A DNA stretch of 56,366 nt from a virus. The stretch is taken from positions 1 to 56,366 of IMG/VR virus record IMGVR_UViG_3300028920_000081; one strand, written 5' to 3'. Positions 1 to 56,366 of the stretch are shown piece after piece. A program made the translations under genes and the position numbers. Under the pieces are notes generated by a model that made no database searches, had not been told where the DNA came from, and worked only from the letters and a program-made list of their open reading frames with translations. How positions within the stretch are numbered: position 1 is the stretch's first letter; the number at the start of each line of letters is the position of its first letter.

Positions 1-162
1 GTAGATAAGATTATAGAAGATATGCCATTAAGATTATATCCTTTTATTAGATTCTGGGATTATCTTTCTTGGGAAAAGAAAGGATTAAGTTACCATGAAG
101 TAAGAAGATTAATAGGACAAGGTAGAGGATTAAAATATTTATATTTAAGGAGGAAAAAATGA
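1..162 (+). CDS. FkbM-family methyltransferase, C-terminal part (gene crosses the contig join)
   Basis: This open frame has no start here. Read from base 1 it gives 53 codons and stops at TGA 160-162, overlapping the next ATG at 159 (ATGA). Its first 14 bases equal the last 14 of the window, and the gene starting at 55780 runs into it in the same frame, giving one protein of about 244 residues. The tail is basic and aromatic. The N-terminal part at the other end carries the SAM-binding motif. Confidence 0.85.
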   Translation, partial: VDKIIEDMPLRLYPFIRFWDYLSWEKKGLSYHEVRRLIGQGRGLKYLYLRRKK

Positions 163-5246: not shown

Positions 5247-5900
5247 ATGCCAGAAATAATTACTGAACCAAAAGAAACTAGCATAAAGTTAGGTATAGGA
5301 ATATTCATTTTAGTTGCACTTCTTGGAACTGCATTTATTATCCCAGAAGGTTATGATGCTTATCAATGTAATGATAATGATCAAACAATCGTTGGATTAT
5401 GTTTTAAGTTAAGTGCAGTAAATTCAGATGGATTACAAACAAGATGTTATTATAATGAATCTGCACCTAGAACTTATAAGAATTGTAAAACAGGCTGGAT
5501 TAAATACGACGAAAAAATTGTTGTTGGTAATGAAACCAAAATTCCTACTTACATAGAATATACTGAAAAATCACTTAGAAAGGATTTTGTTAAAAAAATA
5601 GATGCAGAAGAATATATTATTGATTTAAAGAAAGAAGTCAAATCTAATGTAACTATTTTAAGAACAGAACAAAGACCCTTTTCTGATGAAATAGAAGTAT
5701 TCTGGAATGCTTTAATATATACAGAAGGGTATGAGGAAATAGATAATGGAACAATTATTACAAGAGAAGTTTTAAGTAATGAAACTCTTAGTTCAAAATT
5801 TTCAGAAGATTCTACTGAAGAACAAATAAATGAAACTATTTCTAAGCATGCAGAGGAATATTTAAACAGATGGAATCCAAATATTATTATTTCCTCGTAA
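5247..5900 (+). CDS. Membrane-anchored exported protein
   Basis: This encodes 217 residues. A hydrophobic segment at about 14-31 follows a short charged N-terminus, consistent with a type II anchor. The outer part has paired cysteines (CNDND, GLC, RCYY, NCK) and several N-x-S/T sequons. It begins one base after the previous stop and overlaps the start of the LamG gene by 31 bases. Function unknown; the context is a surface-protein group. Confidence 0.6.
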   Translation: MPEIITEPKETSIKLGIGIFILVALLGTAFIIPEGYDAYQCNDNDQTIVGLCFKLSAVNSDGLQTRCYYNESAPRTYKNCKTGWIKYDEKIVVGNETKIPTYIEYTEKSLRKDFVKKIDAEEYIIDLKKEVKSNVTILRTEQRPFSDEIEVFWNALIYTEGYEEIDNGTIITREVLSNETLSSKFSEDSTEEQINETISKHAEEYLNRWNPNIIISS

Positions 5901-10798: not shown

Positions 10799-11992
10799 AT
10801 GGCTTACAAAACTTTAATACTTGGAGAAGAAACTCTTTCTAAAAACGATGTTCTAAAAGTCCCTCATATTATAAAAAATAAAGTTTTGATGGCTCCTGGA
10901 ACTTGGAATGATATGAATTATACTTCTGAAGATATTAAACAAGCTTTTGAAAACACTAATTGGAGTGATAAAGATGTTTGTTCTTTAATTTTAGATCATG
11001 CAGATAAACCTCTCTCTTTAAAAGATTGGGTTGGCTGGGTTAAAAATCCTAGATTTGATGAAGCTAGTGGAAAAGTATTAGGAGATTTAGAATTTTATGA
11101 TGAAAATATTCTTACTAAGGTTTTAGTTGCTGGTGCTAGATGTGGAGTATCTCCAAAGGTTAGGGGAGATGAAATGGACGGTTTTTTAAGAAATTTTACT
11201 TTTGAAAATTTTTCAGTAGTTACAAATCCTGCTGTAAAAAAAGCTTACATAAATCTTTCTGAAAATTATTCTTGTGAATGTTTAAAATGTGGTCATACTA
11301 TTCAAACAAAAGAACATTGTAGGGATATTAAATGTCCTAAATGTGGAGGAGAAATGAGAAGGTCTGAAAGACCTGGCCCAGGTCAAGAAAATTCAAATTT
11401 TAAAGAGGTGAAAGGAGGTTTAAAAAAAGAAATGTCCGAAGATAAAATTGAAGAAAAAGTTGATGAAAAAGAAAAAGAAGAAAAATCTGAAGTAAAGGAA
11501 GAAGAAAAAGATGAAGAATCTAAGGAATCTGAATCTGAAGAAGAAGAAAAAACTTCTGAAGAAATGAGTGATTTATTAGAGGTTTCATCAAATGAAGACT
11601 GGCCTGGATTTGTTAAATCAATGAAAGAAAAGAAATCTGACGTTACTCTAAGTGAGATAATGAAAGCTTACAAAGAAGGAAGGGAAGCTTCTGCTAAGCT
11701 AGAAGAATTATCTACTGATGAGATTGTTAAGAGAGTAAATGAATTAACAGCAGTCTTGAAAAAGAGAAACAATGCAATTCCTGAACCTAAGAAAGATAAT
11801 ACTCAAGAAATGGCTAATGAAATAAAAGATTTGAAAAATCAAATCAAAGAAATGTCTGCTAAGATGAATGAACCAGATTCAAAATCTGTTCATAACCTTT
11901 CAGAACAAAGCTATACTTTAGAGGAAAAACATCATTCTGATGGTGTAATGGGAATGGCGGACTTTTTGAAAAAGTTAAAAAACGAACAATGA
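10799..11992 (+). CDS. Prohead protease fused to scaffold, with an inserted zinc ribbon
   Basis: This encodes 397 residues. Residues 1-155 form an XkdF/S78-like capsid protease domain, with LDHAD (65-69), GWVKNPRF (79-86) and GVSPK (116-120) as likely catalytic surroundings. Residues 159-195 hold a zinc ribbon (C161, C164, C179, C182 and others) followed by MRRSERPGPGQ, a signature I recall from phage proteases. Residues 212-397 are a Glu/Lys-rich coiled coil typical of scaffolds. An in-frame ATG (11432) could give scaffold alone. The MCP start overlaps its stop. Confidence 0.85.
   Translation: MAYKTLILGEETLSKNDVLKVPHIIKNKVLMAPGTWNDMNYTSEDIKQAFENTNWSDKDVCSLILDHADKPLSLKDWVGWVKNPRFDEASGKVLGDLEFYDENILTKVLVAGARCGVSPKVRGDEMDGFLRNFTFENFSVVTNPAVKKAYINLSENYSCECLKCGHTIQTKEHCRDIKCPKCGGEMRRSERPGPGQENSNFKEVKGGLKKEMSEDKIEEKVDEKEKEEKSEVKEEEKDEESKESESEEEEKTSEEMSDLLEVSSNEDWPGFVKSMKEKKSDVTLSEIMKAYKEGREASAKLEELSTDEIVKRVNELTAVLKKRNNAIPEPKKDNTQEMANEIKDLKNQIKEMSAKMNEPDSKSVHNLSEQSYTLEEKHHSDGVMGMADFLKKLKNEQ
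11432..11992 (+). CDS. Putative separate scaffold protein from an internal start
   Basis: This is the same frame as the protease gene, starting at Met212 (MSEDKIEEK). AAAGGAGG lies at 11411-11418, 13 bases before the ATG; that spacing is long but the match is strong. The product would be a 186-residue acidic coiled coil. The lambda C/Nu3 pair is the precedent for this arrangement. Inference from a ribosome site and domain boundary only. Confidence 0.4.
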   Translation: MSEDKIEEKVDEKEKEEKSEVKEEEKDEESKESESEEEEKTSEEMSDLLEVSSNEDWPGFVKSMKEKKSDVTLSEIMKAYKEGREASAKLEELSTDEIVKRVNELTAVLKKRNNAIPEPKKDNTQEMANEIKDLKNQIKEMSAKMNEPDSKSVHNLSEQSYTLEEKHHSDGVMGMADFLKKLKNEQ

Positions 11993-13095
11993 AACCAAAA
12001 AGTATAAGAGAATTAGCTGCAACTGAAACTCCTGATGTAAGAGGTGCTAGTAATACATTCTACGGATTGCAACCTGTACAATTTCTTAAGGAAATTGTTG
12101 ATGCTGCAAAGAAGCAATTATATTTTGCTAATTTTGTAAGAGTTATGTATGCTCCAAAAGGAGTACATGATGTTGTAATTCCAAAGAGAACTGCATTTGA
12201 GGGAAGATCTGGAATGACTTTCAATACTGCTGGTAGTGATACTGGTGGTAGTGGAGCTGGAACAGGTCCTTACGCAAATACTATAGCAGATATTAGCTGG
12301 ACATCATTGGATAATTTAACTTCTGTAACTGTAACACCACAACCGGTTCTTGCAGGGTATGCTCTTAGAAGATACGATATTGATACTAATGCCGTTAATC
12401 TTTTAGAAGCTGCTAGAGAAGAATTAAGTTATGCTATTGGTGATAGAGTTGATAGAGCTGTTGCTGTTGCTATTGGTGATGCAACTGTTGCTGCAGACAC
12501 AACTGTTGGTGCTCAAACACTATACGGTGGTGATGCAACTGGTGCTGACGAATTATCTGCTGGAGATGTTATTACAACTGATCTAGTAGCTAAGGGTAAA
12601 AGATATTTACAGCAAACAAAGATGTATTATCGTGCAGATGGAGCTAATGGAACAGAAACTTTAGCTACAAGTACTAAGAATCCTTGGAATAATACTTCAG
12701 ACGATCCTTTCGTTCTGTTTATTGCTCCTGCTCAAGAAGAAACTTTCTTGAAAGATTCTCAATTTGTAAATGCTGCTGAATATGGAAGTGATATGATTGT
12801 TAAGAATGGTGAAATTGGAACATATCTTGGTATCAGAGTTGTTGTAACAAACAATGTTGAACAAACTGCTGCTAGTGGAACTGCGCCAGACGCAACTAGT
12901 GCTGCTGTTGCTTGTACAAGATGTATTCTATGTAAGCCAAAAGCTGCATGTGCTTTAGTATGGGGAAAGAGTCCAGAAATAAAAGTATTTGATTACCCTA
13001 CTCAAGATCAGATGAGAATTGGATTGTACACTGCATATAATGTTGGTGTATTACAAGCTGATGCTATAGTTTTCATCGATGTTTCAGACGCATAA
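11989..13095 (+). CDS. Major capsid protein (HK97 fold)
   Basis: This encodes 368 residues directly after protease-scaffold, with an ATGA overlap. The sequence is rich in Ala, Gly, Thr and Val and has a more even codon choice than its neighbours, as for a highly expressed gene. N-terminal helix, an E-loop-like stretch near RTAFEGRSG, a spine helix (AVNLLEAAREELSYAIGDRV), and the late segment GTYLGIRVVVTNNV, which resembles the P-domain strand of phage capsid proteins. A strong T-run terminator follows. Confidence 0.88.
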   Translation: MKPKSIRELAATETPDVRGASNTFYGLQPVQFLKEIVDAAKKQLYFANFVRVMYAPKGVHDVVIPKRTAFEGRSGMTFNTAGSDTGGSGAGTGPYANTIADISWTSLDNLTSVTVTPQPVLAGYALRRYDIDTNAVNLLEAAREELSYAIGDRVDRAVAVAIGDATVAADTTVGAQTLYGGDATGADELSAGDVITTDLVAKGKRYLQQTKMYYRADGANGTETLATSTKNPWNNTSDDPFVLFIAPAQEETFLKDSQFVNAAEYGSDMIVKNGEIGTYLGIRVVVTNNVEQTAASGTAPDATSAAVACTRCILCKPKAACALVWGKSPEIKVFDYPTQDQMRIGLYTAYNVGVLQADAIVFIDVSDA

Positions 13096-13789: not shown

Positions 13790-13820
<31 letters not shown>

Positions 13821-13827
13821 AAAAAGA

Positions 13828-13866
13828 TTTATAAAGTCCATTATACATAGGATTATATAATGGATA
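13828..13866 (+). promoter_or_regulatory. Promoter with embedded operator; (+) copy of a 39-bp inverted repeat
   Basis: TATA box TTTATAAA (13828-13835) lies about 28 nt before the ATG at 13860, so the mRNA is leaderless. Between them CCATTATA (13838-13845) and TATAATGG (13856-13863) form a perfect dyad with a 10-nt spacer that includes the start codon. The whole 39 bp recurs exactly, on the other strand, at 39758-39796. A repressor here would block transcription of the glycan cassette. Confidence 0.75.
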
Positions 13867-14540
13867 CATTAATTGTTGGTCGTGGGGAGATTGGTAAATC
13901 TCTTTATTCTGTTTTAAAGGATTCTTATAATGTTAATATAGTGGACATTAGTGATACTAGTGAGATGCTTCCAGGAATAATGCATATTTGTTTTCCTTAT
14001 TCTGAAAGATTTGTAGAACAAGTTAAAGCATATCAAAAATATTATGAACCTACATATACAATAATTCATTCTACTGTTCCTGTTGGAGTATCTAAGAAAT
14101 GTAATGCAATTCATTCTCCTTGCGTCGGGATACACCCTCATTTAGCAAAGAGTCTGAAAACTTTTACTAAGTTTCTTGGAGGAGAAAAAGCTAGTGAAGT
14201 TGCTCAATATTTTAGAAGGGCTGGAATTAATATTTATTTATTTGATAAGTCGGAAACAACAGAATTAATGAAAGTTCTTTCTACAAGTTTTTATGGATTG
14301 CTAATAGAATGGACTAAGGAAGTTAAAAGACAATGCGAAAAATATGATGTTCCTTTTGAAGCATGGACTTTATGGACTAATAATTATAACAGAGGATATA
14401 ATCTTCTTGGGTACCCAGAATATACCAGACCAAATTTAATTCCTATAAAAACTAAGATTGGTGGGCATTGCATTATTCCTAATTTAGATTTTTTAGAAGG
14501 AACTTTTTTTAAATTAATTAAGGAGTTGAATAATGGTTAA
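13860..14540 (+). CDS. NDP-sugar dehydrogenase-like protein (truncated UDP-Glc/GDP-Man DH)
   Basis: This encodes 226 residues. It opens with a Rossmann site LIVGRGEIGKSL and has IIHSTVPVG in the family position, a TTELMKVLSTSFYG helix like the central-domain segment that normally holds Glu and Lys, and GGHCIIPN near residue 204, which matches the GGHC motif with the catalytic Cys. Full enzymes have 400 or more residues, so the C-terminal NDP-sugar domain is missing. It may make a uronic-acid donor, or act with a partner. It starts the glycan cassette. Confidence 0.7.
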   Translation: MDTLIVGRGEIGKSLYSVLKDSYNVNIVDISDTSEMLPGIMHICFPYSERFVEQVKAYQKYYEPTYTIIHSTVPVGVSKKCNAIHSPCVGIHPHLAKSLKTFTKFLGGEKASEVAQYFRRAGINIYLFDKSETTELMKVLSTSFYGLLIEWTKEVKRQCEKYDVPFEAWTLWTNNYNRGYNLLGYPEYTRPNLIPIKTKIGGHCIIPNLDFLEGTFFKLIKELNNG

Positions 14541-15600
14541 ATTTAATTGGAGGCAAAAAGATAATTATGTTTTTCTTCAGAATAAAGATATTGAAATCCA
14601 CTTTGAAGTTCCAAATAATTTTAAATTAAATGATACCCATCCAACTTTATTAAGATTAGTTGAATATTTAGTCTTTGGTCCTTTTGAGAAAGAGGTTTTT
14701 AAAAGAAGTGATATTCTTAAATGGAAGAAAAGAGTATTTAAAAAAACAGGAGATATTGCTCTTTCATGGAGTACTGGAAAGGACTCTACTGCTGCAATGT
14801 TAGTTCTCCCAGAAAATACTTTATTATTTTATCATCAAAGAGATGAATATCTTGGAGGTTCACTAGACCAAGATAACGCATTTAGATTTATAAATCATAT
14901 TAAAGGAAAAAAGAGATTATTTGTTTCTAAATCTAATCAAGAAAAAGTTAGAATGTTGCATGGAAAAGAAAGGGGTTTTTCTACACCCTTTAGTTGTGTT
15001 GCTGGTCTTGTTTTATTAGCTGATCATTTTAAATTAAATTATATCGCTACTGGGACTATGTTAGATTCTACTTTTATTGAAAAAGGATGTAAATATAGAG
15101 ATTTAAAAGAATTTTGGAGTAGATGGGGGCTTATTTTTGGTAGAGCTGGTTTAAAGCTTGTGCTTCCTGTTGGAAATATTTCAGAGGTTTTAACAAGCAA
15201 GATAGTTTCTATGAGTGAATATGATGAATATTCTTTTTCTTGTATAAGAGGGAATAATGGAAAGGCTTGTGGGAAATGTTATAAATGTTTTAGAAAAAAT
15301 CTTTTAGATGGAAAGGAAGTGATTTATTCTTCAAATGCAGATAGAGCTCTTTATCATTCAGATCATTTACATCAAGGAGATGCTTTAATTTGGGCGTATC
15401 AAAGGAGTAATTTAAAAATTCCTAGATTAGAAGAATATAGAAATCTTGATTTGTCTTTTTTGGAAAGATATTATCCTCTTGGGAATCATTTAATTCCAGA
15501 AAAATATAGATCTTTTGTATTGGAAAAATTTAAAGAATATGATATTAAACCAATGAATAAGGAGGATATTAAGAAACTCAAAAAAATAGATATAAAATGA
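14533..15600 (+). CDS. PP-loop ATP pyrophosphatase (QueC-like or sugar amidotransferase-like)
   Basis: This encodes 355 residues. The PP-loop is SWSTGKDST (78-86). The second half has a cysteine cluster SCIRGNNGKACGKCYKCFRK that resembles the QueC zinc site (C...CGxCxxC). Relatives include 7-cyano-7-deazaguanine synthase and N-acetyl-sugar amidotransferases. No other deazaguanine gene is visible, and the flanking genes act on glycans, so a sugar role fits better; both remain open. It overlaps both neighbours by a few bases. Confidence 0.7.
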   Translation: MVKFNWRQKDNYVFLQNKDIEIHFEVPNNFKLNDTHPTLLRLVEYLVFGPFEKEVFKRSDILKWKKRVFKKTGDIALSWSTGKDSTAAMLVLPENTLLFYHQRDEYLGGSLDQDNAFRFINHIKGKKRLFVSKSNQEKVRMLHGKERGFSTPFSCVAGLVLLADHFKLNYIATGTMLDSTFIEKGCKYRDLKEFWSRWGLIFGRAGLKLVLPVGNISEVLTSKIVSMSEYDEYSFSCIRGNNGKACGKCYKCFRKNLLDGKEVIYSSNADRALYHSDHLHQGDALIWAYQRSNLKIPRLEEYRNLDLSFLERYYPLGNHLIPEKYRSFVLEKFKEYDIKPMNKEDIKKLKKIDIK

Positions 15601-16511
15601 TAAAAGTTTTTTTAATTGCTACTGGTTATTCTGATAATTTTAATCATGTATTTGGTGGAAGTCCAATGGAATATTTGTCTCTCAAAACTGCTTTTGATAG
15701 GGAAAAAGATTATATCTTTGAAGTTATGCCTCAATCAAAATTTGATTTTGAAGTAGTAAAGAGGAAAAGAGAAGAAGGTTATATTATCCATTGTGAATCT
15801 TGGACTTGCCTATGTAAATTATATAAGGAAAATTTTATTCCAGATGTTTTAGGTCCAACAATTCAATCTCCTTTTAAAAATGAACAAAGATTACAAAGTT
15901 TAAAGGATATAAATTTTCCTATTGATAATTACTTTTTATCTACAGTTATTAGAAATAATTCTGCAGAAGAAAGATCTTATCCAGAAATGGCCAAAAAAAT
16001 TAAGTATATTCACTTGGGGGTTGATACTGATAAGCTTAAACCTTCTAATAATGAAAAAAAATTAATTCTTTGGGCAGGAGATTCTTCTCGTTCTTGTAAG
16101 AATTTTGAATTAATGAAAGAAATAATGAAGATTACTAAACTTCCAAAACCTTATGAATTTAAGATATTATCTCAGTATAATGTATTAGATTATTGGAATA
16201 TCCTTAATCAAACAAAGATAGTTATTAATACAAGCAAATGGGAAAGCTTTTGTTTTGCTATGTTTGAAGCAGAATCTAAAGGAGTTCCAGTTATTTATAA
16301 AAAAGGCTTACATGGAAATGTTCATAAAGACAATCATATACAAGTAGAAAATACTCCAGAAGCATATAGGGACAAAATATTAGAATTATTAAATAATGAA
16401 GAATTATATAAAAAAGAAAGCAAATATGCCAGAGATTATACTATTAAAAATTCAAGTTATGAGATGATGGTTAAAACTTTTGGGGATATTTATAAGGGGA
16501 TTAAAAAATGA
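15597..16511 (+). CDS. GT-B fold glycosyltransferase (GT4-like)
   Basis: This encodes 304 residues, somewhat short. The C-terminal half is typical GT4: IHLGVDTDKLKP, the strand ILWAGDSSRSCKNFELM, then VINTSKWESFCFAMFEAESKGVPVIY, where the E-x7-E motif holds the donor sugar. The N-terminal acceptor domain is less conserved. It likely transfers a sugar in the cytoplasm. It overlaps its neighbours with ATGA junctions. Confidence 0.85.
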   Translation: MIKVFLIATGYSDNFNHVFGGSPMEYLSLKTAFDREKDYIFEVMPQSKFDFEVVKRKREEGYIIHCESWTCLCKLYKENFIPDVLGPTIQSPFKNEQRLQSLKDINFPIDNYFLSTVIRNNSAEERSYPEMAKKIKYIHLGVDTDKLKPSNNEKKLILWAGDSSRSCKNFELMKEIMKITKLPKPYEFKILSQYNVLDYWNILNQTKIVINTSKWESFCFAMFEAESKGVPVIYKKGLHGNVHKDNHIQVENTPEAYRDKILELLNNEELYKKESKYARDYTIKNSSYEMMVKTFGDIYKGIKK

Positions 16512-17200
16512 TAGTTTTTTTTAGAGATGATGATGTAGATGAAGTTAATCCTCAATTAACTAATTTGGTTAAGATGTTTGCAGAGGAAAAAGTTCCTATT
16601 AATTTAGAAGTTGTTCCTGGGAGAGTTGGAATTAGTACAACGCCAATAAATAATTTAAAGAATTTTTTTAATAAATATAAAGATTTTATAGAGGTTCATC
16701 AACATGGATTTAATCATTTTGAATATGCTCCAAGAAATGAATTTCCTGATGAGAGGATAAATTTAGTGGTTAGTGAAGAAATTAAGGCAGGAAAGATATT
16801 TTTAGAAACTTATTTCAAGGAATTTTTTTATCCTGCATTTACTCCCCCCTGGCATAGAATAGGAAAATTTCATATCCCAGTAATAGAAAAATTAGGCTTT
16901 AAGATAATTTCTGCAGGATTTAATTTAAATCATAAACTAAAAGATTTATCTGTTTATACTGACCTCTCTATATTTGATAATAAACTTAAAAAAAGTAGAT
17001 TTGCTACAAAAGAAGAATTAATTGAAAAGTTTGAAAAACTTAAGAAAGAAAAATCTTCTGAAATGATAGGATTTTATCTTCACCATAAGTTCTATAAAAC
17101 TCCGGAATCTATAGAACCTATAAGAGAATTTATTAAATATTTAAAAGAAAAGGAGGTAAAAATTAAAACATTTAGTCAAATATGGGAGCTTCACAAATAA
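16508..17200 (+). CDS. Polysaccharide deacetylase-like protein (NodB/DUF2334 type)
   Basis: This encodes 230 residues. It opens with FFRDDDVDE (D7-D9) and has HQHGFNHFEY (H64, H66, H70), then FTPPWHRIG and FYLHHKFYKT near the end. These are the metal-binding and catalytic motifs of carbohydrate esterase 4-type deacetylases. It has no signal peptide, so it would act on cytoplasmic sugar intermediates. Confidence 0.75.
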   Translation: MIVFFRDDDVDEVNPQLTNLVKMFAEEKVPINLEVVPGRVGISTTPINNLKNFFNKYKDFIEVHQHGFNHFEYAPRNEFPDERINLVVSEEIKAGKIFLETYFKEFFYPAFTPPWHRIGKFHIPVIEKLGFKIISAGFNLNHKLKDLSVYTDLSIFDNKLKKSRFATKEELIEKFEKLKKEKSSEMIGFYLHHKFYKTPESIEPIREFIKYLKEKEVKIKTFSQIWELHK

Positions 17201-17673
17201 GTTACGTTCCAGCATTATGGGATATTGCAAATAGTGGATTTAAACCTAATAAGGTTTTAGAATTAGGTTGTGGTTGTAGTTCTTTCATGCTTAGATGGTT
17301 ATTTGAAAAGTCAAAATTACATATAATAGATGATAATTCCATTTGGTTTAATTGTACTGAAAATATGGGGGGATATTCAGCAGATTTTAGAAAATTAGCT
17401 AGAACCAAGCAGGATTTTTTAGACGGAATATTACAATTTGGAAAAATGGATTTGATCTTTGTAGATTGTGGACGTAGAGGGGATTATTCAGATAAATGGA
17501 GAAGTGATTTTTTGAAATTAATTAGGGAGAAAAAAATATTAAATCCAGAAGGGTTGATAATTTTACATGATGCAACTCGTCCTGAATATCAAGAAGAATG
17601 TAAAAATTGGGAATGTGATAAAAAGAAAGAGGAGGATACTTACATTTTAAAATGGCCTTTGAACCAAAAATAG
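17182..17673 (+). CDS. Class I SAM-dependent methyltransferase
   Basis: This encodes 163 residues. Motif I is VLELGCGCSSFMLRW and the motif IV-like strand is MDLIFVDCGRRGDY, followed by GLIILHDATR. It is compact, with little beyond the Rossmann core. Glycan O-methylation is likely from context. It overlaps the previous gene by 19 bases. Confidence 0.75.
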   Translation: MGASQISYVPALWDIANSGFKPNKVLELGCGCSSFMLRWLFEKSKLHIIDDNSIWFNCTENMGGYSADFRKLARTKQDFLDGILQFGKMDLIFVDCGRRGDYSDKWRSDFLKLIREKKILNPEGLIILHDATRPEYQEECKNWECDKKKEEDTYILKWPLNQK

Positions 17674-18485
17674 ATTTTGTAATTTCAGTAAGGGATAGAG
17701 ACAATAAAAGAATACAGATATGTGTAAATAGTCTTTTATCTAATATTACAAATAAGATATATGTTGTGGACTATGGTTCTAAAAAACCTATTAAGGGTTT
17801 AAAAAATTGTAAAGTAATAAGAGTTGATACTAAAAATAGATGGAACAAATGCCATGCTTTAAATATAGGAATAAAAAAATGCAAATCTTCCTATATTGGA
17901 ACAGTTGATTGTGATATGGTTATTGGGAATTGTTTTATGAAAAAAGTAAAGGAACATTTAAAGGGAGATGTTTTTCTTTTTACTCGTTCTGTTGCTAGGA
18001 TTGCTCCAGATCTTTTAGATTGGGGATTAGATAGAGAAAAGCTTATTAGACTTTCTTCTCCTTGGTCTGAAACAAAACTTCCGAGTTTGCATGCTGCTGT
18101 TGGAGGAATACAAATATTTCCAAAATGGTGGATTTTTAGAATAAGAGGATATGATGAAAATCTTACTTATTGGGGGGGAATGGATAATGATATATATGAA
18201 AGAGCATTTAGAACAGAATTGATTATGATTGATATTAATGAAATAATCTTTCATCAAGAACATAAGAATGTTAAAGAACAGAATTTAACTTCTAAAAAAG
18301 AGCAGGAAACTGCTTTATCTGAAAGACAAAAAAGAAGAATATATCTTATGTATAAATGGACTAAAAATATTAATGTTGGACCTAAAACATGGGGTGCTCC
18401 AACTAAACCTCAACAAAATCAAATAAATATTAATTTTCAAAATGGCAAAAAGAAAAAAGATACTGTTAGCAATAATAAGCAATAG
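17652..18485 (+). CDS. GT-A glycosyltransferase (GT2/GT7-like)
   Basis: This encodes 277 residues. It starts with DFVISVRDRDNKRI, has the donor site IGTVDCDMVIG and later YWGGMDNDIYERAFR, which resembles the C-terminal GGxDxD motif of the chondroitin-synthase/GT7C type. It then has FHQEH and a Lys/Asn-rich tail. It overlaps the next gene by 44 bases, so its tail and the next N-terminus share DNA. Confidence 0.8.
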   Translation: MAFEPKIDFVISVRDRDNKRIQICVNSLLSNITNKIYVVDYGSKKPIKGLKNCKVIRVDTKNRWNKCHALNIGIKKCKSSYIGTVDCDMVIGNCFMKKVKEHLKGDVFLFTRSVARIAPDLLDWGLDREKLIRLSSPWSETKLPSLHAAVGGIQIFPKWWIFRIRGYDENLTYWGGMDNDIYERAFRTELIMIDINEIIFHQEHKNVKEQNLTSKKEQETALSERQKRRIYLMYKWTKNINVGPKTWGAPTKPQQNQININFQNGKKKKDTVSNNKQ

Positions 18486-19077
18486 AAAATATTATCCTGC
18501 ATATTTTGTTAGGAGTGTTTTTGCAATAGCAAATCATACAAGACAATTTCATGACTTGGATATACAAACTTTTGAATCAGTTGAAGTTCAGCAAATGAGA
18601 AATAACGCATGCCATTTTGCTATTCATCATAAATATGATTATCTCTTTATGTTAGATGATGATATGAATTATCCTCAAAAATGTATAGTTGAATTAATGA
18701 AGCATAAGAAAGAATTTGTTGTTGGGAGTGCAACTCAAAGACGACCTCCATTCTATCCTACTCAATATAAAAATTTAAATGCAAAAAGATTTAAGGATAA
18801 AGTTAATAGAGTTTTTATAACAAAAGAAGATAAAAAATTAATAGAAGTTGATGGCTCTGGAGTTGTTGGAGCTCTAATAAAGGTTGATTCTCTTAAAAAA
18901 TTAAAGGCACCTTATTTTAGATTAGTTTGGAAGAAAAATGGATTTGATATAATTGGGAGTGATGTTTATTTTTGTAAGGAATGGAGAAAAACAGGGAAAA
19001 AAATTTATTTAGACCCTAAAATAAATTATGATCACGAAATAACTGCTTTTTCTAATAGTTTTGGAATTGTAACATAA
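18442..19077 (+). CDS. GT-A glycosyltransferase, paralogue of the one at 10096
   Basis: This encodes 211 residues. It has YDYLFMLDDDMNYP as donor site, VVGSATQRRPPFYP in the position of the VVGALYVIKHPP strand of the earlier gene, GSGVVGALIKVD, and a late DVYFCKEWRKTG, DPKINYDHE. The same order of motifs as at 10096-10734 argues for common origin. It is the last gene of the first glycan run. Confidence 0.8.
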   Translation: MAKRKKILLAIISNRKYYPAYFVRSVFAIANHTRQFHDLDIQTFESVEVQQMRNNACHFAIHHKYDYLFMLDDDMNYPQKCIVELMKHKKEFVVGSATQRRPPFYPTQYKNLNAKRFKDKVNRVFITKEDKKLIEVDGSGVVGALIKVDSLKKLKAPYFRLVWKKNGFDIIGSDVYFCKEWRKTGKKIYLDPKINYDHEITAFSNSFGIVT

Positions 19078-23087: not shown

Positions 23088-24011
23088 ATGAAGAATATTG
23101 CTCCAAAGATTTTGATTTGCGCTCCAACGAGTGCAAGACATAAGCATCTTATTGATAAATGGCTTAAACATTTAGATAAGCTAGATTATCCTTATTTTGA
23201 TGTTTGCTTAGTTGATACTACACCAGATAAAACCGATTATTTTAATTTTATAAAGAATAAAAAAGTTAAAGATAAAAAGATTATTTCTTGGAGATATAAC
23301 TGGGATTATAAAAAAGAATATTCCCTACAAATGTTAGCAAATGTTAGGGAGGAAATTAGGAAATATTTTGTTGATCATAAAGAGTATGATTTCTTATTTT
23401 GGTTAGATGATGATATATTTATACCAAAATGGGGCTTACAAAGGCTTCTAAGCTACAATAAAGATTTGGTAGGGTTTTATGTTCATGTTTATTATAAACC
23501 CAGCAGAAGGCCTTGTGTGTTTAAATCAGGCGAAATTGTAGTAGGGAAAGGACTAGAATACTATACTTTTAAAGAAATCCTTAAATATAAGGAATTTGCA
23601 AGGAAATATGAGAAGGGTAATTTATCAAAAGAAGAAAAACTTCTAATACCTTATTTAATAAAAGATAGATGGCATCCTTATATTTTTCCAACTTATGCTG
23701 TTGGATTAGGGTGTTGTATGTGCAGTAGAAAAGTTAGTGAAGCTGTTCCTTTTAGGACTCATCCTACTTTTTTAATGGGGGAAGACCTTTGGTGGTTTGC
23801 TGAATGCAATGATAAAAATTTTCAATTTTGGTGTGATAGTAAAACAAGATGTAAGCATGAGAATACTAGCTGGAGTCCTGTAAATAAATTAGATTTGGCT
23901 TATAAAAAGAAAACAGGAATATATATCGTTCAAGGTAAAGAAGGCCCTCCAACAGGAGCTGTATTTTTACAACATAATAAAGAATGGGAGAAGAAAAATG
24001 ATAAGAAGTGA
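23088..24011 (+). CDS. GT-A glycosyltransferase (GT2-like)
   Basis: This encodes 307 residues. The start IAPKILICAPTSARHK, then DFLFWLDDDIFIPKWGLQ as donor site, DLVGFYVHVYYKPSRRP, the Cys pair GCCMCSRKV and the GEDLWWFAECNDKNF motif identify a GT-A transferase of the same broad type as the others. It lies inside the tail module and overlaps the next gene by 14 bases. Confidence 0.8.
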   Translation: MKNIAPKILICAPTSARHKHLIDKWLKHLDKLDYPYFDVCLVDTTPDKTDYFNFIKNKKVKDKKIISWRYNWDYKKEYSLQMLANVREEIRKYFVDHKEYDFLFWLDDDIFIPKWGLQRLLSYNKDLVGFYVHVYYKPSRRPCVFKSGEIVVGKGLEYYTFKEILKYKEFARKYEKGNLSKEEKLLIPYLIKDRWHPYIFPTYAVGLGCCMCSRKVSEAVPFRTHPTFLMGEDLWWFAECNDKNFQFWCDSKTRCKHENTSWSPVNKLDLAYKKKTGIYIVQGKEGPPTGAVFLQHNKEWEKKNDKK

Positions 24012-24486
24012 TTATGAAAATTATTTTGACCCTTATACCCAGGGGGTTATAAGAAATCACGGATTAGATGAAGCTACCTTAAATTTTTTAAAAAATCATC
24101 ATAAAATTCTTGATGCTGGTTCTGGAGCAGGAGTATTGGCTCTAAAACTAAAGGAACTAGGAAAAGATGTTACTTGTATTGATATTTTTAGTAAAAATGT
24201 TGAATACATGAAATCTAAGGGTTTAAACGCCTTAAAAGGCAATATTTGTAATCTCCCTTTCAAGGATAAAGAATTTGATTGTGTAGTTTGTCAAGAAGTT
24301 TTAGAACATTTAATTAATCCTGGGGAAGGGTTAAAGGAATTATGTAGGATTGGGAAAAATGTTGTTTTTACTTTACCTAAAATGTTTCCTGAGGAGTGGC
24401 ATTTTTGGGATATTGATTACGTTCCTTCTGTTTCTAATGCTAATTGTATTATTATTAAATTAATTGATAAGGAGGCAAATAAATGA
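23998..24486 (+). CDS. Class I methyltransferase (Methyltransf_11-like)
   Basis: This encodes 162 residues. Motif I is ILDAGSGAGVLALKL, followed by VTCIDIF and DCVVCQEVLEHLINPGE. This is the ordinary small-molecule or glycan methyltransferase core. It follows a transferase, so glycan methylation is likely. Confidence 0.8.
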   Translation: MIRSDYENYFDPYTQGVIRNHGLDEATLNFLKNHHKILDAGSGAGVLALKLKELGKDVTCIDIFSKNVEYMKSKGLNALKGNICNLPFKDKEFDCVVCQEVLEHLINPGEGLKELCRIGKNVVFTLPKMFPEEWHFWDIDYVPSVSNANCIIIKLIDKEANK

Positions 24487-39594: not shown

Positions 39595-39764
39595 TAAGTA
39601 ATCCTCCCTAAAACTTCTATTTGAACTTTATTGTCTCTTTCTAGGTCCTTTAATTCAGAACGAACATAATACCAGTTAGAACCTATTCCCTTAGCAATTT
39701 CATTAATTGTCTTTAAACTATCTTGTTTTTTTAGAAAATCTAATATCTTATCTTTTATATCCAT
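39576..39764 (-). CDS. Small winged-helix regulator
   Basis: This encodes 62 residues with a helix-turn-helix LKTINEIAKGIGSNWYYVRSE and a wing (NKVQIEVLGRITYCKCLK). Its own promoter contains the perfect CCATTATA/TATAATGG dyad also present before the glycan cassette at 13828, so it is the natural candidate for the factor that binds it, as an autorepressor and a regulator in trans. Binding is inference. Confidence 0.7.
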   Translation of the reverse strand: MDIKDKILDFLKKQDSLKTINEIAKGIGSNWYYVRSELKDLERDNKVQIEVLGRITYCKCLK

Positions 39765-39796
39765 TATATAATCCTATGTATAATGGACTTTATAAA
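39758..39796 (-). promoter_or_regulatory. Promoter/operator; (-) copy of the 39-bp inverted repeat
   Basis: It is the exact reverse complement of 13828-13866: TATA box, CCATTATA/TATAATGG dyad and the first codons. The ATG of the winged-helix gene is inside it at the same distance, so transcription is leaderless. Confidence 0.8.
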
Positions 39797-39806
39797 TGTT
39801 TTGGAA

Positions 39807-45113: not shown

Positions 45114-45204
45114 TTTCTATTAACTCCCTTGATTTTCTTTCAAAATCTCTTTCTCTTGCTTCTTCCAATAAATAATCCTCTTGTTCTGCATTTAGTTCTA
45201 TCAT
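45106..45204 (-). CDS. 32-residue acidic peptide
   Basis: MIELNAEQEDYLLEEARERD and a short charged end. GGGGGT lies before the start and the stop overlaps the next ATG. Small but well coupled. Confidence 0.4.
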   Translation of the reverse strand: MIELNAEQEDYLLEEARERDFERKSRELIENE

Positions 45205-45971
45205 TTTTTACCCCCATTAAGACACATAGAGAAAGGATTTGACTCCTCTCTCTTATGTGTTTGGCTACTTACAACTCCATTTCTAATTTGGCTTACAAAA
45301 CTTTTCAGTAGTTGTTTCTTTTCCTCAATTACTGAGTCTTGTGTTACAAGATTTTTGTAACTATTAAGAAATTCTTTGGCTTGTTCTACATATTCTAATT
45401 TGTTTAGTTCTTTACCCTCGTGTTCTATTATCTCTTTTAATCTGCTTACTTCCTCGTTATTACTATAAGAGTTAAATGGTATTTCAACATAAATCAAGTC
45501 CTCTTTATTGTTTAACATAATAACTAAATGCTCTTTTCCTCTAATCACTAATTTACATATAGCATAGTAATCTGTTAAACTTTCTTTGAAAGAATAGAAA
45601 GTTTTAAAGTCAGATTTCTTATATCCTTTGGCTATGCTTGGTAACAGAATCTTTGAATTTTTAACATAAGGAAAGATATTACTAATGGTATCTTTTCCTA
45701 ATTTCTTAATTCCTAATACTTCTAATCTTCCATTTTCAAGCAATTCCTTTAGTTTATTTTCTTGTTCTTTTGAAAGTATTGTGTCCTTATCTAATCCCTT
45801 AAGAATATCATTTCCTAAAAGTTCTTTATCGCAATTCTTACAATATTTCTTATATCCTACCCTTGCTTTACAACACTCGCTAAATTGATGAAGTGATGAA
45901 TAACCACTTTGATTATTGTAAAGATTTAATGTCATTACAGGTATTTTTATTAGTCCTATTTGTATCTGCAT
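45201..45971 (-). CDS. ku: Ku-like DNA end-binding protein
   Basis: This encodes 256 residues, near the length of bacterial and archaeal Ku. It has IGLIKIPVMTLNLY (5-18), LHQFSECCKARVGYKKYCKN (27-46), GNDILKGLD (53-61) and AICKLVIRGKEHLVIM (137-152) in the order of Ku: FGLVNVPV, FHQLH...RIRYKRVC, DIVKGYE and AIGKVVLRGREHLV. Ku threads onto broken DNA ends for end joining or protection. GAGGAG precedes its start. An RNA-ligase-type gene is at 52153. The C-terminal 60 residues are helical and not Ku-like. Confidence 0.85.
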   Translation of the reverse strand: MQIQIGLIKIPVMTLNLYNNQSGYSSLHQFSECCKARVGYKKYCKNCDKELLGNDILKGLDKDTILSKEQENKLKELLENGRLEVLGIKKLGKDTISNIFPYVKNSKILLPSIAKGYKKSDFKTFYSFKESLTDYYAICKLVIRGKEHLVIMLNNKEDLIYVEIPFNSYSNNEEVSRLKEIIEHEGKELNKLEYVEQAKEFLNSYKNLVTQDSVIEEKKQLLKSFVSQIRNGVVSSQTHKREESNPFSMCLNGGKK

Positions 45972-48700: not shown

Positions 48701-49570
48701 TTATAAGGTTTCTTTCCTTGTTTTATTTAGTTTAATAGAGGTAACCCCTATTTTATTATGATTTTTTGCTTTCTTACTTCCCTTATATTGATTATTAAAA
48801 AATCTATCCTTAAATTGTCTTATATGCTTAATTTTAACACTATTAGAACTTACTTTAAGATTATTATAATTATTATAACTCTTATCAATATTCGTATTAT
48901 GAATAGAGGTTTTATTTTTACCATTTCTTTTAGAAAAATAAAGTGCCTTATCTGTCCTTAATATACTTAAATTTAAGTCATTTGAGTATTTAGCTATACC
49001 TAAACTTAAGGTGTTACTTGTATTTTTATATACTGCTTTCCTTATTCTCTCACTAATTTTATAAGCTGTTTTAAGTTCTGTGTTTGGTAGTATAATAATA
49101 AATTCTTCCCCACCATACCTATAAACCTTATCTATGCCTTGTCTTAAACTGCCTTGTATTTGCTCAGAAACTTGTTTTAAGAGCATATCGCCTTGTAAGT
49201 GTCCATAAGTATCATTAACTTTCTTAAAGTCGTCTATATCTGCTAATATAAAGCATAGTGAGTAATTAAGAGTAATTGCTTTATTTACTTCTTGTATTAC
49301 TTCATAATTAAATGTATTTCTGTTCTTTATGCCTGTTAATTTATCATAATACATAATAGTTTTTAATATCTCTTGTTCTTCTATTGATAGTTTATTAAGA
49401 ATTTGATTTATTAAACTTCTATTTTCTATTTTATTTAACCTTTGTTTCTTATGGAGATTTACCTTTTTAAGTCCTAATTCTTGTAAATTTAAGCTATTTG
49501 CTTTATTAGTTTCCACTGGAAATATAGGTGTTTTGTCCATAGGGCATAGTTTTTGTTGTTCTGCTCTCAT
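48701..49570 (-). CDS. GGDEF-domain protein (diguanylate cyclase-type)
   Basis: This encodes 289 residues. The GGDEF core runs about 74-220: DKLTGIKNR (76-84), ADIDDFKKVND (110-120), YGGEEF (152-157) and DKALYFSKRNGKN (207-219). The metal and active-site residues (D111, E155, E156) are in place, so an active cyclase is likely. The inhibitory RxxD site before GGEEF is not exact (RQGID). The N-terminal 70 residues are helical with no sensor domain; the last 70 are Lys/Asn-rich. GGDEF enzymes make c-di-GMP in bacteria and are rare in archaea. Confidence 0.88.
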   Translation of the reverse strand: MRAEQQKLCPMDKTPIFPVETNKANSLNLQELGLKKVNLHKKQRLNKIENRSLINQILNKLSIEEQEILKTIMYYDKLTGIKNRNTFNYEVIQEVNKAITLNYSLCFILADIDDFKKVNDTYGHLQGDMLLKQVSEQIQGSLRQGIDKVYRYGGEEFIIILPNTELKTAYKISERIRKAVYKNTSNTLSLGIAKYSNDLNLSILRTDKALYFSKRNGKNKTSIHNTNIDKSYNNYNNLKVSSNSVKIKHIRQFKDRFFNNQYKGSKKAKNHNKIGVTSIKLNKTRKETL

Positions 49571-49782
49571 TTTAAGCTAAACCTCACTATAAAGGGTATT
49601 AACCAATTAGTGCAAGGAGTAAGCAGACAGGCAATAACTCCTATACTTCCAAATCCTACCCTCACTTTATTTAATTTAGGTGTATATGTTTCAAAGCTAT
49701 ACCTTGTTTTTACTGGTTTGATAAATCTTATAATATTCATTACTTTCTTTTGTATAATGTTCTGTCTATGATAGTAAATCAT
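49567..49782 (-). CDS. Small membrane protein
   Basis: This encodes 71 residues from ATG 49782, which overlaps the stop of the gene upstream; a frame to 49827 is possible. A basic start (MIYYHRQNIIQKKV) leads to a C-terminal segment FGSIGVIACLLTPCTNWLIP. Coupled by ATGA to the GGDEF gene, so the two are co-translated and may interact. Confidence 0.5.
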   Translation of the reverse strand: MIYYHRQNIIQKKVMNIIRFIKPVKTRYSFETYTPKLNKVRVGFGSIGVIACLLTPCTNWLIPFIVRFSLK

Positions 49783-49895
49783 TTTAAACTCCATACTAAA
49801 GCCAAGCCAAGCAATAAGAAGGGGCATACTACTTTAAGTGTATCAAGTAATACCCCCCTGCTTATGTGAGATTTAATTTTAAGTATTAACTGCAT
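49779..49895 (-). CDS. 38-residue membrane protein
   Basis: A short charged start (MQLILKIKSHISRG) and a hydrophobic segment (VVCPFLLLGLALVW). ATGA overlap with the next gene. Found only when short ORFs are read. Confidence 0.5.
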   Translation of the reverse strand: MQLILKIKSHISRGVLLDTLKVVCPFLLLGLALVWSLK

Positions 49896-50173
49896 TTTAA
49901 CCCCTTTGTGTCTTTATTTTCAATTATGACCCAATCGTGTTGTTTTGCTTGTTCTCTTTGTCTTTCTATCGTTTTTATAAAATCCTCTCTTGTTGCCTTT
50001 CTTACTATTGGTTTTTTATATGCTTGTAACTCTTTTATTTCTTGTCTTAAACTTTCTATTCTTCTTTTTATGCTTTCTTTAGTTCTTTTGTATTCTTCTT
50101 TATTATATTGGTTACTATTTTTTATACTCTCTTTATAATCCTTATAGTTCCATAGTGTAAATGTGTATTTCAT
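49886..50173 (-). CDS. Coiled-coil protein
   Basis: This encodes 95 residues. A helix from about 20 to 80 (ESIKRRIESLRQEIKELQAY and more) is very charged. The start overlaps the upstream gene. Function unknown. Confidence 0.5.
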   Translation of the reverse strand: MKYTFTLWNYKDYKESIKNSNQYNKEEYKRTKESIKRRIESLRQEIKELQAYKKPIVRKATREDFIKTIERQREQAKQHDWVIIENKDTKGLKCS

Positions 50174-50355
50174 TTCTTTATCCTATGACTACAAATAAAA
50201 AGTTCTTTCTTTGTGTCGTGTTCTATCTGTCTTGTTATACACTTACAAATACTACAATACAAATCTTTATAAATAACCTTATCCTTATCAGAATTGTTAT
50301 AAAGATTTGTATCCTCTTGTCTTTCTATCTGTGTTCTTTGTTTGTTTATTTCCAT
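50170..50355 (-). CDS. Zinc-ribbon-like protein, first gene of the (-) array
   Basis: This encodes 61 residues. CSICKCITRQ...FICSHR gives three cysteines and a histidine for zinc. It is the first gene of the (-) operon and its promoter is at 50376-50386; the mRNA is predicted to be leaderless. Being first, it may be a regulator. Confidence 0.6.
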   Translation of the reverse strand: MEINKQRTQIERQEDTNLYNNSDKDKVIYKDLYCSICKCITRQIEHDTKKELFICSHRIKK

Positions 50356-50375
50356 AATATAATAATATGAATATT

Positions 50376-50386
50376 CTTTATAAATC
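50376..50386 (-). promoter_or_regulatory. TATA box for the (-) array
   Basis: On the (-) strand GATTTATAAAG lies 26 nt before the ATG at 50355, which predicts a leaderless start. Confidence 0.7.
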
Positions 50387-50587: not shown

Positions 50588-50728
50588 ATGAAAGAAATAA
50601 AACAATGTCCTGTTTGTCAATCAAGAAAGATTTCTCAAAAAGGATCTGAGATGAGATGTAATAATTGTGGTTACACTCACTCCGATAAAGAGGAGGCGTA
50701 TGTCAAAACTTTAAATGAAACTAAATAA
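50588..50728 (+). CDS. 46-residue zinc-ribbon protein
   Basis: KEIKQCPVCQSRKISQKG, then MRCNNCGYTHSDKEE. Two CxxC knuckles (C7, C10, C24, C27) form a zinc ribbon like those of archaeal TFB or RNA polymerase-associated proteins. It is the first (+) early gene and overlaps the HNH gene by 14 bases. A role in early transcription is possible. Confidence 0.7.
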   Translation: MKEIKQCPVCQSRKISQKGSEMRCNNCGYTHSDKEEAYVKTLNETK

Positions 50729-51769: not shown

Positions 51770-51914
51770 TGCTCGGTAGTCTAATGGTAGGATATGAGAC
51801 TCATGCAGCCACGCTTGATAACTAAGTTTGAAACCATTGAAAAATTCTCCTTTTGAAGTGTGTTTCTGTGGCTGGAGAAATCTCAAGATGGAGGTTCAAA
51901 TCCTCCCTGAGCAA
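51770..51914 (+). tRNA. tRNA with CAT anticodon (Met or Ile2) and 74-nt intron
   Basis: Acceptor TGCTCGG/CTGAGCA, D arm GTCT-AATGGTA-GGAT, anticodon stem TGAGA/TCTCA and T arm GGAGG-TTCAAAT-CCTCC are complete. Anticodon CAT is at 51802-51804 and the intron about 51806-51879, with its own stem CAGCCAC/GTGGCTG. An Ile2 (AUA-reading) identity fits the many ATA codons, but elongator Met cannot be excluded. Confidence 0.85.
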
Positions 51915-52006: not shown

Positions 52007-52156
52007 ATGACAAATATAGAATTAAAAGATAACTTCGCATTGATTGCATGTGATCCTCCATTAAATAAAGAATCTAAACTATTCTGGTTAGCTGTTGCTT
52101 CTGCATTATTTTTGTTATCCGGTATTGGAGTATTCTTATACATATTCCTAAGATGA
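52007..52156 (+). CDS. Small membrane protein
   Basis: This encodes 49 residues: a soluble start then a C-terminal hydrophobic anchor (LFWLAVASALFLLSGIGVFL). The stop overlaps the ligase ATG. Function unknown. Confidence 0.55.
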   Translation: MTNIELKDNFALIACDPPLNKESKLFWLAVASALFLLSGIGVFLYIFLR

Positions 52157-52752
52157 AAATAAAAGATATGCCTAAACTTGAATGTCCTTTTGTTAGAAAG
52201 GAAGTTAATGGAAAATATATTGTAATAAATGAAGTTAATCCTGGATATGAATGGGTATTTGAAGATGAAAGTGTTATGGCAATAGAAAAACTTCATGGAA
52301 CTAATGTTAGTATTTTAATTCAAGAGGGAACTGTTACTGCTGTTTTTAATAGAACAGAGAGAATACCATTTATTAATAAAGGTAAGAAGTGGATAATTGA
52401 AGGTTTACTTAATTCTAAAGAAAGAGGATATTTAGAGTTTTTAAGTGATGGCCAACATTTTGGTGAATTAATTGGACCTAAAGTAAATGGAAATCCGTAT
52501 AAGTTAGATGAACATTTATGGATTCCTTTTGAAACATTTTGCCAAAAACATTTAAAATATAAATCATGGGGGAAATATCCTAAAGATTTTCAAACAATTA
52601 GTAATTGGTTTAAAGAATTACTTCCTCTATATACTTCTATGAAAGGAGATAGAAATGGATTTGTAGAAGGAATAGTATTTACTCACCCAGATGGAAGAAT
52701 GGCTAAATTAAGATGTGATATGTTTGATTGGTTTGAAGGGAGGAGGCATTAA
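52153..52752 (+). CDS. RNA-ligase-type nucleotidyltransferase
   Basis: This encodes 199 residues. Motif I is EKLHGTN (45-51, nucleophile K46), motif III FGELIGPKVNGNPY (103-116), motif IV VEGIVF (171-176) and motif V MAKLRC (183-188). These are those of RNA ligase 2/DNA-ligase-fold enzymes. Short length with no C-terminal domain. It might seal RNA nicks (for instance cut tRNAs near by) or DNA ends together with Ku. Confidence 0.85.
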   Translation: MKIKDMPKLECPFVRKEVNGKYIVINEVNPGYEWVFEDESVMAIEKLHGTNVSILIQEGTVTAVFNRTERIPFINKGKKWIIEGLLNSKERGYLEFLSDGQHFGELIGPKVNGNPYKLDEHLWIPFETFCQKHLKYKSWGKYPKDFQTISNWFKELLPLYTSMKGDRNGFVEGIVFTHPDGRMAKLRCDMFDWFEGRRH

Positions 52753-55783: not shown

Positions 55784-56366
55784 AAAATTTTATAGAAAAA
55801 CTAACGTGGCTGCCATTTCATTTAAATAGAATTATTTCTCATAAAAAATCAATAGTATGTGTAGATGTTGATGGGTTTAAGTTTAAAATGAAATTAATAG
55901 AAGATGATTCTCCCTATTCTTTAACAAGTACTTTAAGAAGTTGTGGAATGAGAGAACCAAGAAATGTTAGAAATTATATCAAATTTATTGATAAAAATGA
56001 TATTGTATTAGATGTAGGAGCAAATGTTGGTTTCTTTACCCTTCTTTCAAGAAATGCTAAGAAGATTATTGCTATTGAACCTATTAAAAGATGTTTAGGA
56101 ATATTAGAAGATAATTTAAAATTAAATAATATAAATAATGTAGAGATTTACAATTTAGCATTAGGAGATGGTAAAGATGTTAATTTTATGGAAGCAGAAT
56201 CATTAAATCAATCTAGAGTTGTTAAAGGTAAAGGTTATAAAGTTAAATCAAAAAAATTAAATTATTTTGTTAAAAAATTTAAAGTAAATATGATTAAAAT
56301 TGATGTTGAGGGTTATGAATATGAGGTATTTAAGAAGGGTATTCCTAAAAGGGTAGATAAGATTAT
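55780..56366 (+). CDS. FkbM-family methyltransferase, N-terminal part (continues at base 1)
   Basis: The frame runs open to the last base. It has IVLDVGANVGFFTLLSRNAK as motif I (about 71-90), IIAIEPIKRC and VNMIKIDVEGYEYEVFKKGI near the end; the DVEG signature is typical of FkbM methyltransferases, which O-methylate sugars and other small molecules. Joined to 1-162 it is about 244 residues. It belongs with the glycan-modifying genes. Confidence 0.88.
   Translation, partial: MKNFIEKLTWLPFHLNRIISHKKSIVCVDVDGFKFKMKLIEDDSPYSLTSTLRSCGMREPRNVRNYIKFIDKNDIVLDVGANVGFFTLLSRNAKKIIAIEPIKRCLGILEDNLKLNNINNVEIYNLALGDGKDVNFMEAESLNQSRVVKGKGYKVKSKKLNYFVKKFKVNMIKIDVEGYEYEVFKKGIPKRVDKI

Follow-up and report, generated by a model that had tools for sequence, protein, structure and literature searches.

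An apparently intact GGDEF protein of bacterial-type ancestry encoded by a tailed virus that almost certainly infects archaea

Results

The GGDEF gene and the predicted fold of its product

The window analysed here is a stretch of viral DNA of 56,366 nucleotides (IMG/VR record IMGVR_UViG_3300028920_000081, positions 1 to 56,366). On its minus strand, an open reading frame that starts with ATG at 49570 and ends with TAA at 48701 encodes a GGDEF protein with the following parts.

48701..49570, minus strand: GGDEF (diguanylate cyclase-type) protein, 289 residues (open reading frame, PF00990, AlphaFold, Foldseek)
49352..49570, minus strand: N-terminal extension, with ~25 low-confidence residues followed by predicted helices 26-60 and 63-74 (stalk)
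48911..49351, minus strand: GGDEF catalytic domain (domain search, 5.4e-38; invariant residues)
48704..48910, minus strand: C-terminal lysine/asparagine-rich (basic) tail, ~69 residues, mostly of low confidence past residue 240 (AlphaFold)

The Pfam family PF00990 covers residues 74-220 (1e-35; 123.3 bits against a cut-off of 23.8) and the NCBIfam model TIGR00254 matches at 3.7e-37 (127.6 bits against a cut-off of 37.4), so that a chance match is excluded. Seven PHROG families also match the protein, the best at 3.2e-44. In the single-chain AlphaFold model, the mean pLDDT is 81 for the whole protein and 96-98 for the GGDEF domain. The best Foldseek matches are solved diguanylate cyclases, namely WspR, SiaD, Caulobacter DgcB and PleD (best E 1.8e-16), and several isolated solved cyclase domains superpose with an rmsd of 1.3-2 Å, indicating that the domain has the GGDEF fold.

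It had been claimed from the sequence that the protein has no sensor domain. Consistent with this claim, Pfam and NCBIfam recognised none in residues 1-70 or 224-289. No membrane segment is predicted, and both termini are unique and partly of low confidence. With WspR, SiaD and DgcB the protein shares a common fold in which an N-terminal helix runs into the GGDEF domain, and this helix is similar to the stalk found in WspR or in DgcB, the latter a coiled coil joined to GGDEF. Helix 26-60 would be compatible with a homodimer, but gave no clear coiled coil in a crude heptad test, and we infer that the protein may dimerise via its N-terminal helical stalk. The NCBIfam model of SiaD matches at 2e-38, but with 132 bits against a cut-off of 290. 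Neither a receiver domain like that of WspR nor a counterpart of SiaC, the dedicated activator of SiaD, was recognised for the window protein.

Catalytic residues, guanine site and I-site

We aligned 48 sequences, the window protein and 47 relatives, and found that the window protein keeps 18 of the 18 invariant columns, including D76, D111, N119, D128, R143, R151 and GGEEF at 153-157. The core residues are D76 of DxLTG, the metal-binding D111, RYGGEEF at 151-157 (R151, E155, E156), D207 and Y211. Among the phosphate-binding positions, K214 is present and the lysine or arginine expected at 218 is K218. The original prediction that the core residues of a GGDEF cyclase are complete is borne out, as each catalytic or guanine-binding position tested is canonical, and the residues kept rule out a degenerate GGDEF domain. 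Placement by phylogeny among non-catalytic GGDEF remnants would have spoken against the proposed viral cyclase; the aligned relatives are, however, catalytically conserved. Judged by its residues, the protein is intact-looking with respect to catalysis and probably an active cyclase.

The guanine-binding residues N119 and D128, equivalent to N335 and D344 of PleD, are invariant in the 48 aligned sequences. Because both are canonical, c-di-GMP is predicted rather than a hybrid product such as cGAMP, and if the cyclase is active, c-di-GMP is very likely its main product. The I-site reads RQGID (RxxxD), with one residue inserted relative to the RxxD found in 43 of the 47 relatives. The alignment rules out a loss of the I-site, since R and D are both kept, one residue further apart; the RxxD motif of I-site-regulated cyclases is not found as such. 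In this respect the window protein is unlike the stalk-GGDEF cyclases WspR, SiaD and DgcB, and it is possible that product inhibition is weaker via the altered I-site.

A five-gene operon behind an archaeal-type TATA box

The GGDEF gene is the fifth of a leftward operon (50355-50170, 50173-49886, 49895-49779, 49782-49567, 49570-48701) in which each reading frame overlaps the next by a few bases, i.e. with stop-start coupling. The features upstream of the GGDEF gene are as follows.

50376..50384, minus strand: archaeal-type TATA box TTTATAAA in a leaderless arrangement, the operon's first ATG lying 28-29 bases downstream
50170..50355, minus strand: 61-residue reading frame, first operon gene, with an ATGA overlap with the 95-residue reading frame
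49886..50173, minus strand: 95-residue charged reading frame, operon member with no assigned function
49779..49895, minus strand: small protein of 38 residues, a single hydrophobic stretch seen by eye, ATGA overlap with the 71-residue reading frame
49567..49782, minus strand: small protein of 71 residues, likewise a single hydrophobic stretch seen by eye, its TGA overlapping the GGDEF start (ATGA)

The GGDEF gene had been described as coupled by ATGA to two small membrane proteins (49567, 49779). The overlaps are real and each of the two products carries a hydrophobic stretch, so that the 38-residue and 71-residue products are probable membrane proteins. No family was found for the 71-residue protein in Pfam or NCBIfam, and its sole relative is that of the near-identical contig described below. 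A match in one virus with a related capsid gene (9.6e-4) is antisense to another reading frame and was judged to be a chance hit.

A divergent gene at 50588 is preceded by TATTTAAA, with the box at -27. Such leaderless spacing from TATA box to ATG is typical of archaea. Standing at the front of a non-structural operon, these genes would be expressed early in infection. Elsewhere in the window, two genes on opposite strands are preceded by a near-identical stretch of ~40 bases (13815-13860, plus strand; 39764-39802, minus strand), in which TTTATAAAGTCCATTATACATAGGATTATATA is directly followed by ATGGAT. This shared stretch probably arose by duplication of a leaderless promoter of archaeal type.

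A tailed virus of an archaeal host

The window carries the hallmarks of a tailed virus, with terminase, portal, major capsid and tape measure proteins recognised by PHROGs. The features that bear on its host include the following.

11989..13095, plus strand: major capsid protein, with one match among 50,697 phage records
51534..51644, plus strand: tRNA-Thr(UGU), anticodon loop interrupted by a 39-nt intron, an archaeal marker
51770..51914, plus strand: tRNA-Met(CAU), anticodon loop likewise interrupted by an intron (56 nt by ARAGORN), an archaeal marker

In those records the capsid protein matches a single entry, its counterpart from an Altiarchaeum virus (3e-13). The same virus is among the terminase matches, some others of which are phages of bacteria. 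Short anticodon-loop introns are archaeal, not bacterial. TATA boxes are found ~27-32 bases before several ATGs of the window, and for a 46-residue zinc ribbon (50588-50728, plus strand) the best match is archaeal transcription factor S4/TFS (1.7e-5, below the cut-off). Because of the intron-containing tRNAs, the TATA boxes upstream of starts, the TFS-like zinc ribbon and the capsid match, we regard the virus as archaeal; the archaeal features noted in the original prediction were thus recovered independently. The host is almost certainly an archaeon, and a host of the DPANN type is plausible. A scan of bacterial and archaeal genomes with the capsid profile found no relative. As a separate observation, the TFS-like zinc ribbon might act on the host RNA polymerase.

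A second assembly of the same genome

A second contig, IMGVR_UViG_3300028883_000104 (31,765 bp; L020), has an identical copy (100%) of the GGDEF gene with the same surroundings, and its capsid region is 99.95% identical to the window over 18.9 kb. This contig joins base 56366 of the window to base 1 with ~79 bases between them (window 1-100 and 56267-56366; L020 1381-1461). The window is a near-complete genome of ~56.4 kb, circular or circularly permuted. An assembly chimera is ruled out, since the second contig has the same gene in the same place and closes the genome.

Several other genes of the window deserve mention. A protein with a Ku70/Ku80 beta-barrel domain (45201-45971, minus strand; 3.4e-14) is a candidate for DNA end binding and has a weak match to a type II restriction enzyme in PADLOC. 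An RNA ligase-like protein (52153-52752, plus strand) lies beside the two intron-containing tRNA genes and is possibly involved in tRNA repair or splicing; just upstream of its gene, the second contig differs in frame. Inside the structural region there is a sugar-related-looking cluster (13860-19077 and 23088-24486, plus strand), with products that by eye are glycosyltransferase-like, dehydrogenase-like, deacetylase-like and methyltransferase-like, together with a DUF6395 protein (1.5e-25). A protein of 914 residues (5870-8614, plus strand) has four Laminin_G_3 (concanavalin A-like) domains and is possibly a virion adhesin.

Relatives and origin of the GGDEF gene

The best 80 cellular matches listed are all bacterial, come from many phyla and share 33-46% identity with the window protein, 46% being the highest identity to relatives among the matches listed; no close cellular source is found among these 80. 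In the tree, the window GGDEF domain has no strongly supported neighbour, the bootstrap having not settled, and pairs weakly (80/77) with the GGDEF domain of a 300-kb phage contig. The GGDEF protein of that contig (5440-6459 of L004) is membrane-anchored and is the closest sequence to the window domain, at 45%; its gene adjoins an apparent T4-type capsid gene (by eye). By its sequence relatives, the window protein appears to be of bacterial-type ancestry. Archaeal cellular GGDEF sequences (DPANN, Asgard, Methanocella) are absent from the tree and the comparison, and the gene may instead have been captured from an archaeal host.

No GGDEF gene was found in 34 records with related capsid genes (~1 Mb in total, many of them fragments), which suggests a lineage-specific gain; the gene was seen in one virus lineage only. 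In codon usage the gene does not stand out from the rest of the virus (rank 15 of 65), suggesting a gain old enough for the composition to fit the virus.

Virus-encoded GGDEF proteins are already known from bacteriophages. Names in the 128 phage records with a GGDEF match are those of bacterial-host phages or the unassigned 'Bacteriophage sp.'. Among viral proteins, the diguanylate cyclases of Bacillus phages G (gp350, annotated as GGDEF motif diguanylate cyclase, 254 residues) and SP-15 (183 residues) are the top and third structural matches (E 7.6e-16 and 3.5e-13). They are likewise virus-encoded and short, but these phages infect bacteria and the identity is only ~28-36%. Short GGDEF proteins are likewise found in the tailed-phage genomes of Bordetella phages CN1, MW2 and FP1 and of Pseudomonas Yua-like phages; again the hosts are bacteria, the identity is ~28-33%, and the signature is altered in one of them or more (RIAGDEF, Psa21-HRN). 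In Mu-like viruses of the Cariaco Basin, also environmental but bacterial, a cyclase has been proposed as a viral auxiliary gene (PMC7785012). GGDEF domains have been reported in polyvalent proteins of phages, with interference with host nucleotide responses suggested (PMC5512222). The GGDEF proteins of DPANN and Asgard genomes (PMC8646023) and of Methanocella (PMC5847659), set beside ours by description only, share the archaeal setting but are cellular. We found no GGDEF protein in a named archaeal virus in the phage records or in the literature, which was incompletely covered. The archaeal virus setting is what is new here.

Discussion

Here, we describe a GGDEF protein in an archaeal tailed virus, and on balance we favour the reading that a sensorless, competent cyclase of bacterial descent serves as an accessory early gene and makes c-di-GMP in infection. 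A TATA-driven leaderless transcript would be made early, and its stop-start coupled translation would yield the cyclase after two small proteins that are probably membrane proteins. Two GGDEF domains would be brought together by the helical stalk at the N-terminus, as in other stalk-GGDEF enzymes, and two GTP would be joined into 3',5'-c-di-GMP. As the enzyme lacks a sensor and its I-site is altered, it would be weakly regulated and c-di-GMP may be raised during infection. Since no receptor is recognisable in the virus (neither PilZ nor EAL is found in the window), the signal would need targets of the host, or competing systems that sense nucleotides, to act on. In bacteria, c-di-GMP classically changes surface or adhesion, and the purpose could be an altered surface, adhesion or motility of a host that has c-di-GMP receptors. 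We rank such a change as the most likely purpose, with counter-defence second. Whether the cyclase has a purposeful role in infection is, in our judgement, evenly balanced. That the archaeal virus uses c-di-GMP as an infection-time signal, to change the surface or behaviour of the host or to blunt a nucleotide-sensing defence, is a suggestion that we make tentatively.

What is known of c-di-GMP in archaea bears on this suggestion. An early census found no archaeal diguanylate cyclases save diverged, probably inactive reading frames (PMC1183210), and in 2018 one archaeal GGDEF protein was accepted (PMC5847659). In 2021, c-di-GMP was reported as undetectable in Haloferax and Sulfolobus, while more than 300 putative archaeal GGDEF matches, uncharacterised and many of them from Asgard and DPANN genomes, were noted (PMC8646023). 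In our analysis, four archaeal control genomes had neither GGDEF nor PilZ, and no PilZ was found in one bacterial genome or in seven viral records with a GGDEF gene. As the controls lack both domains and c-di-GMP was not detected in two archaea, it is conceivable that the host has no use for c-di-GMP.

These observations lend some weight to the view that the gene was captured from bacteria and has little or no role, being a chance passenger or a mere GTP- or c-di-GMP-binding protein. The scarce use of c-di-GMP by archaea in those three reports, the confinement of the gene to one lineage, its absence from the 34 capsid relatives and the unique, partly low-confidence termini would all fit a passenger. 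Such a passenger would, however, hardly keep an intact frame in a compact genome of overlapping genes, nor all catalytic positions at no more than 46% identity to relatives among the matches listed, and since the codon usage fits the virus, the gene is not a fresh arrival. We therefore hold this view to be rather unlikely. Counter-defence we consider unlikely as well. According to this explanation, c-di-GMP, or the protein acting as a nucleotide sink, competes with or saturates CBASS-type or related receptors of the host. It draws on the setting of the gene, an early-type accessory operon of small unique reading frames, a kind of location in which counter-defence genes are frequent, on the interference suggested for the GGDEF domains of polyvalent proteins (PMC5512222), and on the finding that phages deplete immune nucleotides (PMC12657218). 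Against it, PADLOC gave no match for the GGDEF protein and nothing convincing among the neighbouring reading frames, and the known cases degrade or sponge signals, synthesis of c-di-GMP for this purpose being undocumented in the literature found.

Two further explanations are, in our view, highly improbable. One takes the host to be a bacterium and the protein to be an ordinary phage cyclase like those of phages G and SP-15. The bacterial GGDEF relatives (the best 80 listed), the many bacteriophages with GGDEF proteins and the terminase matches to phages of bacteria would agree with it, but the short introns in the anticodon loops of two tRNA genes, the TATA boxes and the TFS-like zinc ribbon do not, nor does the capsid protein, which matches an archaeal virus and nothing else in the phage records. 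The other is a different product, such as 3',3'-cGAMP or a linear or oligomeric nucleotide, to which we give very little credence. Hypr GGDEF enzymes and Cas10 are enzymes of the GGDEF fold with other products, and in the Hypr enzymes, which are cGAMP synthases, the guanine-site aspartate is commonly replaced by serine. D128, which we take to be the position altered in Hypr enzymes, is canonical in the window protein, and N119 is kept, as in 47 of the 47 aligned relatives. Another such enzyme is mCpol, a minimal CRISPR polymerase in which the GGDEF signature is nearly absent (PMC12657218). The full GGEEF signature of the window protein argues against mCpol or Cas10; its match to Csm1_B is weak and below the cut-off (0.00074, against 1e-35 for GGDEF), so that its best similarity is to GGDEF rather than to an mCpol/OptS or Cas10 palm. 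The shared palm fold would explain this weak match.

We would like to point out what production of c-di-GMP by this virus would mean. As c-di-GMP is regarded as a bacterial signal and archaea hardly use it, an intact-looking cyclase in an archaeal virus is unexpected. With such a cyclase kept by the virus, it becomes possible to test directly if c-di-GMP has any effect in archaea of this kind, and if second-messenger chemistry of bacteria can be carried from one domain to another by viruses. The protein is small, no membrane segment is predicted in it, and its assay would not depend on knowledge of the host. If true, the suggested use of c-di-GMP as an infection-time signal would be the first known manipulation of c-di-GMP by an archaeal virus.
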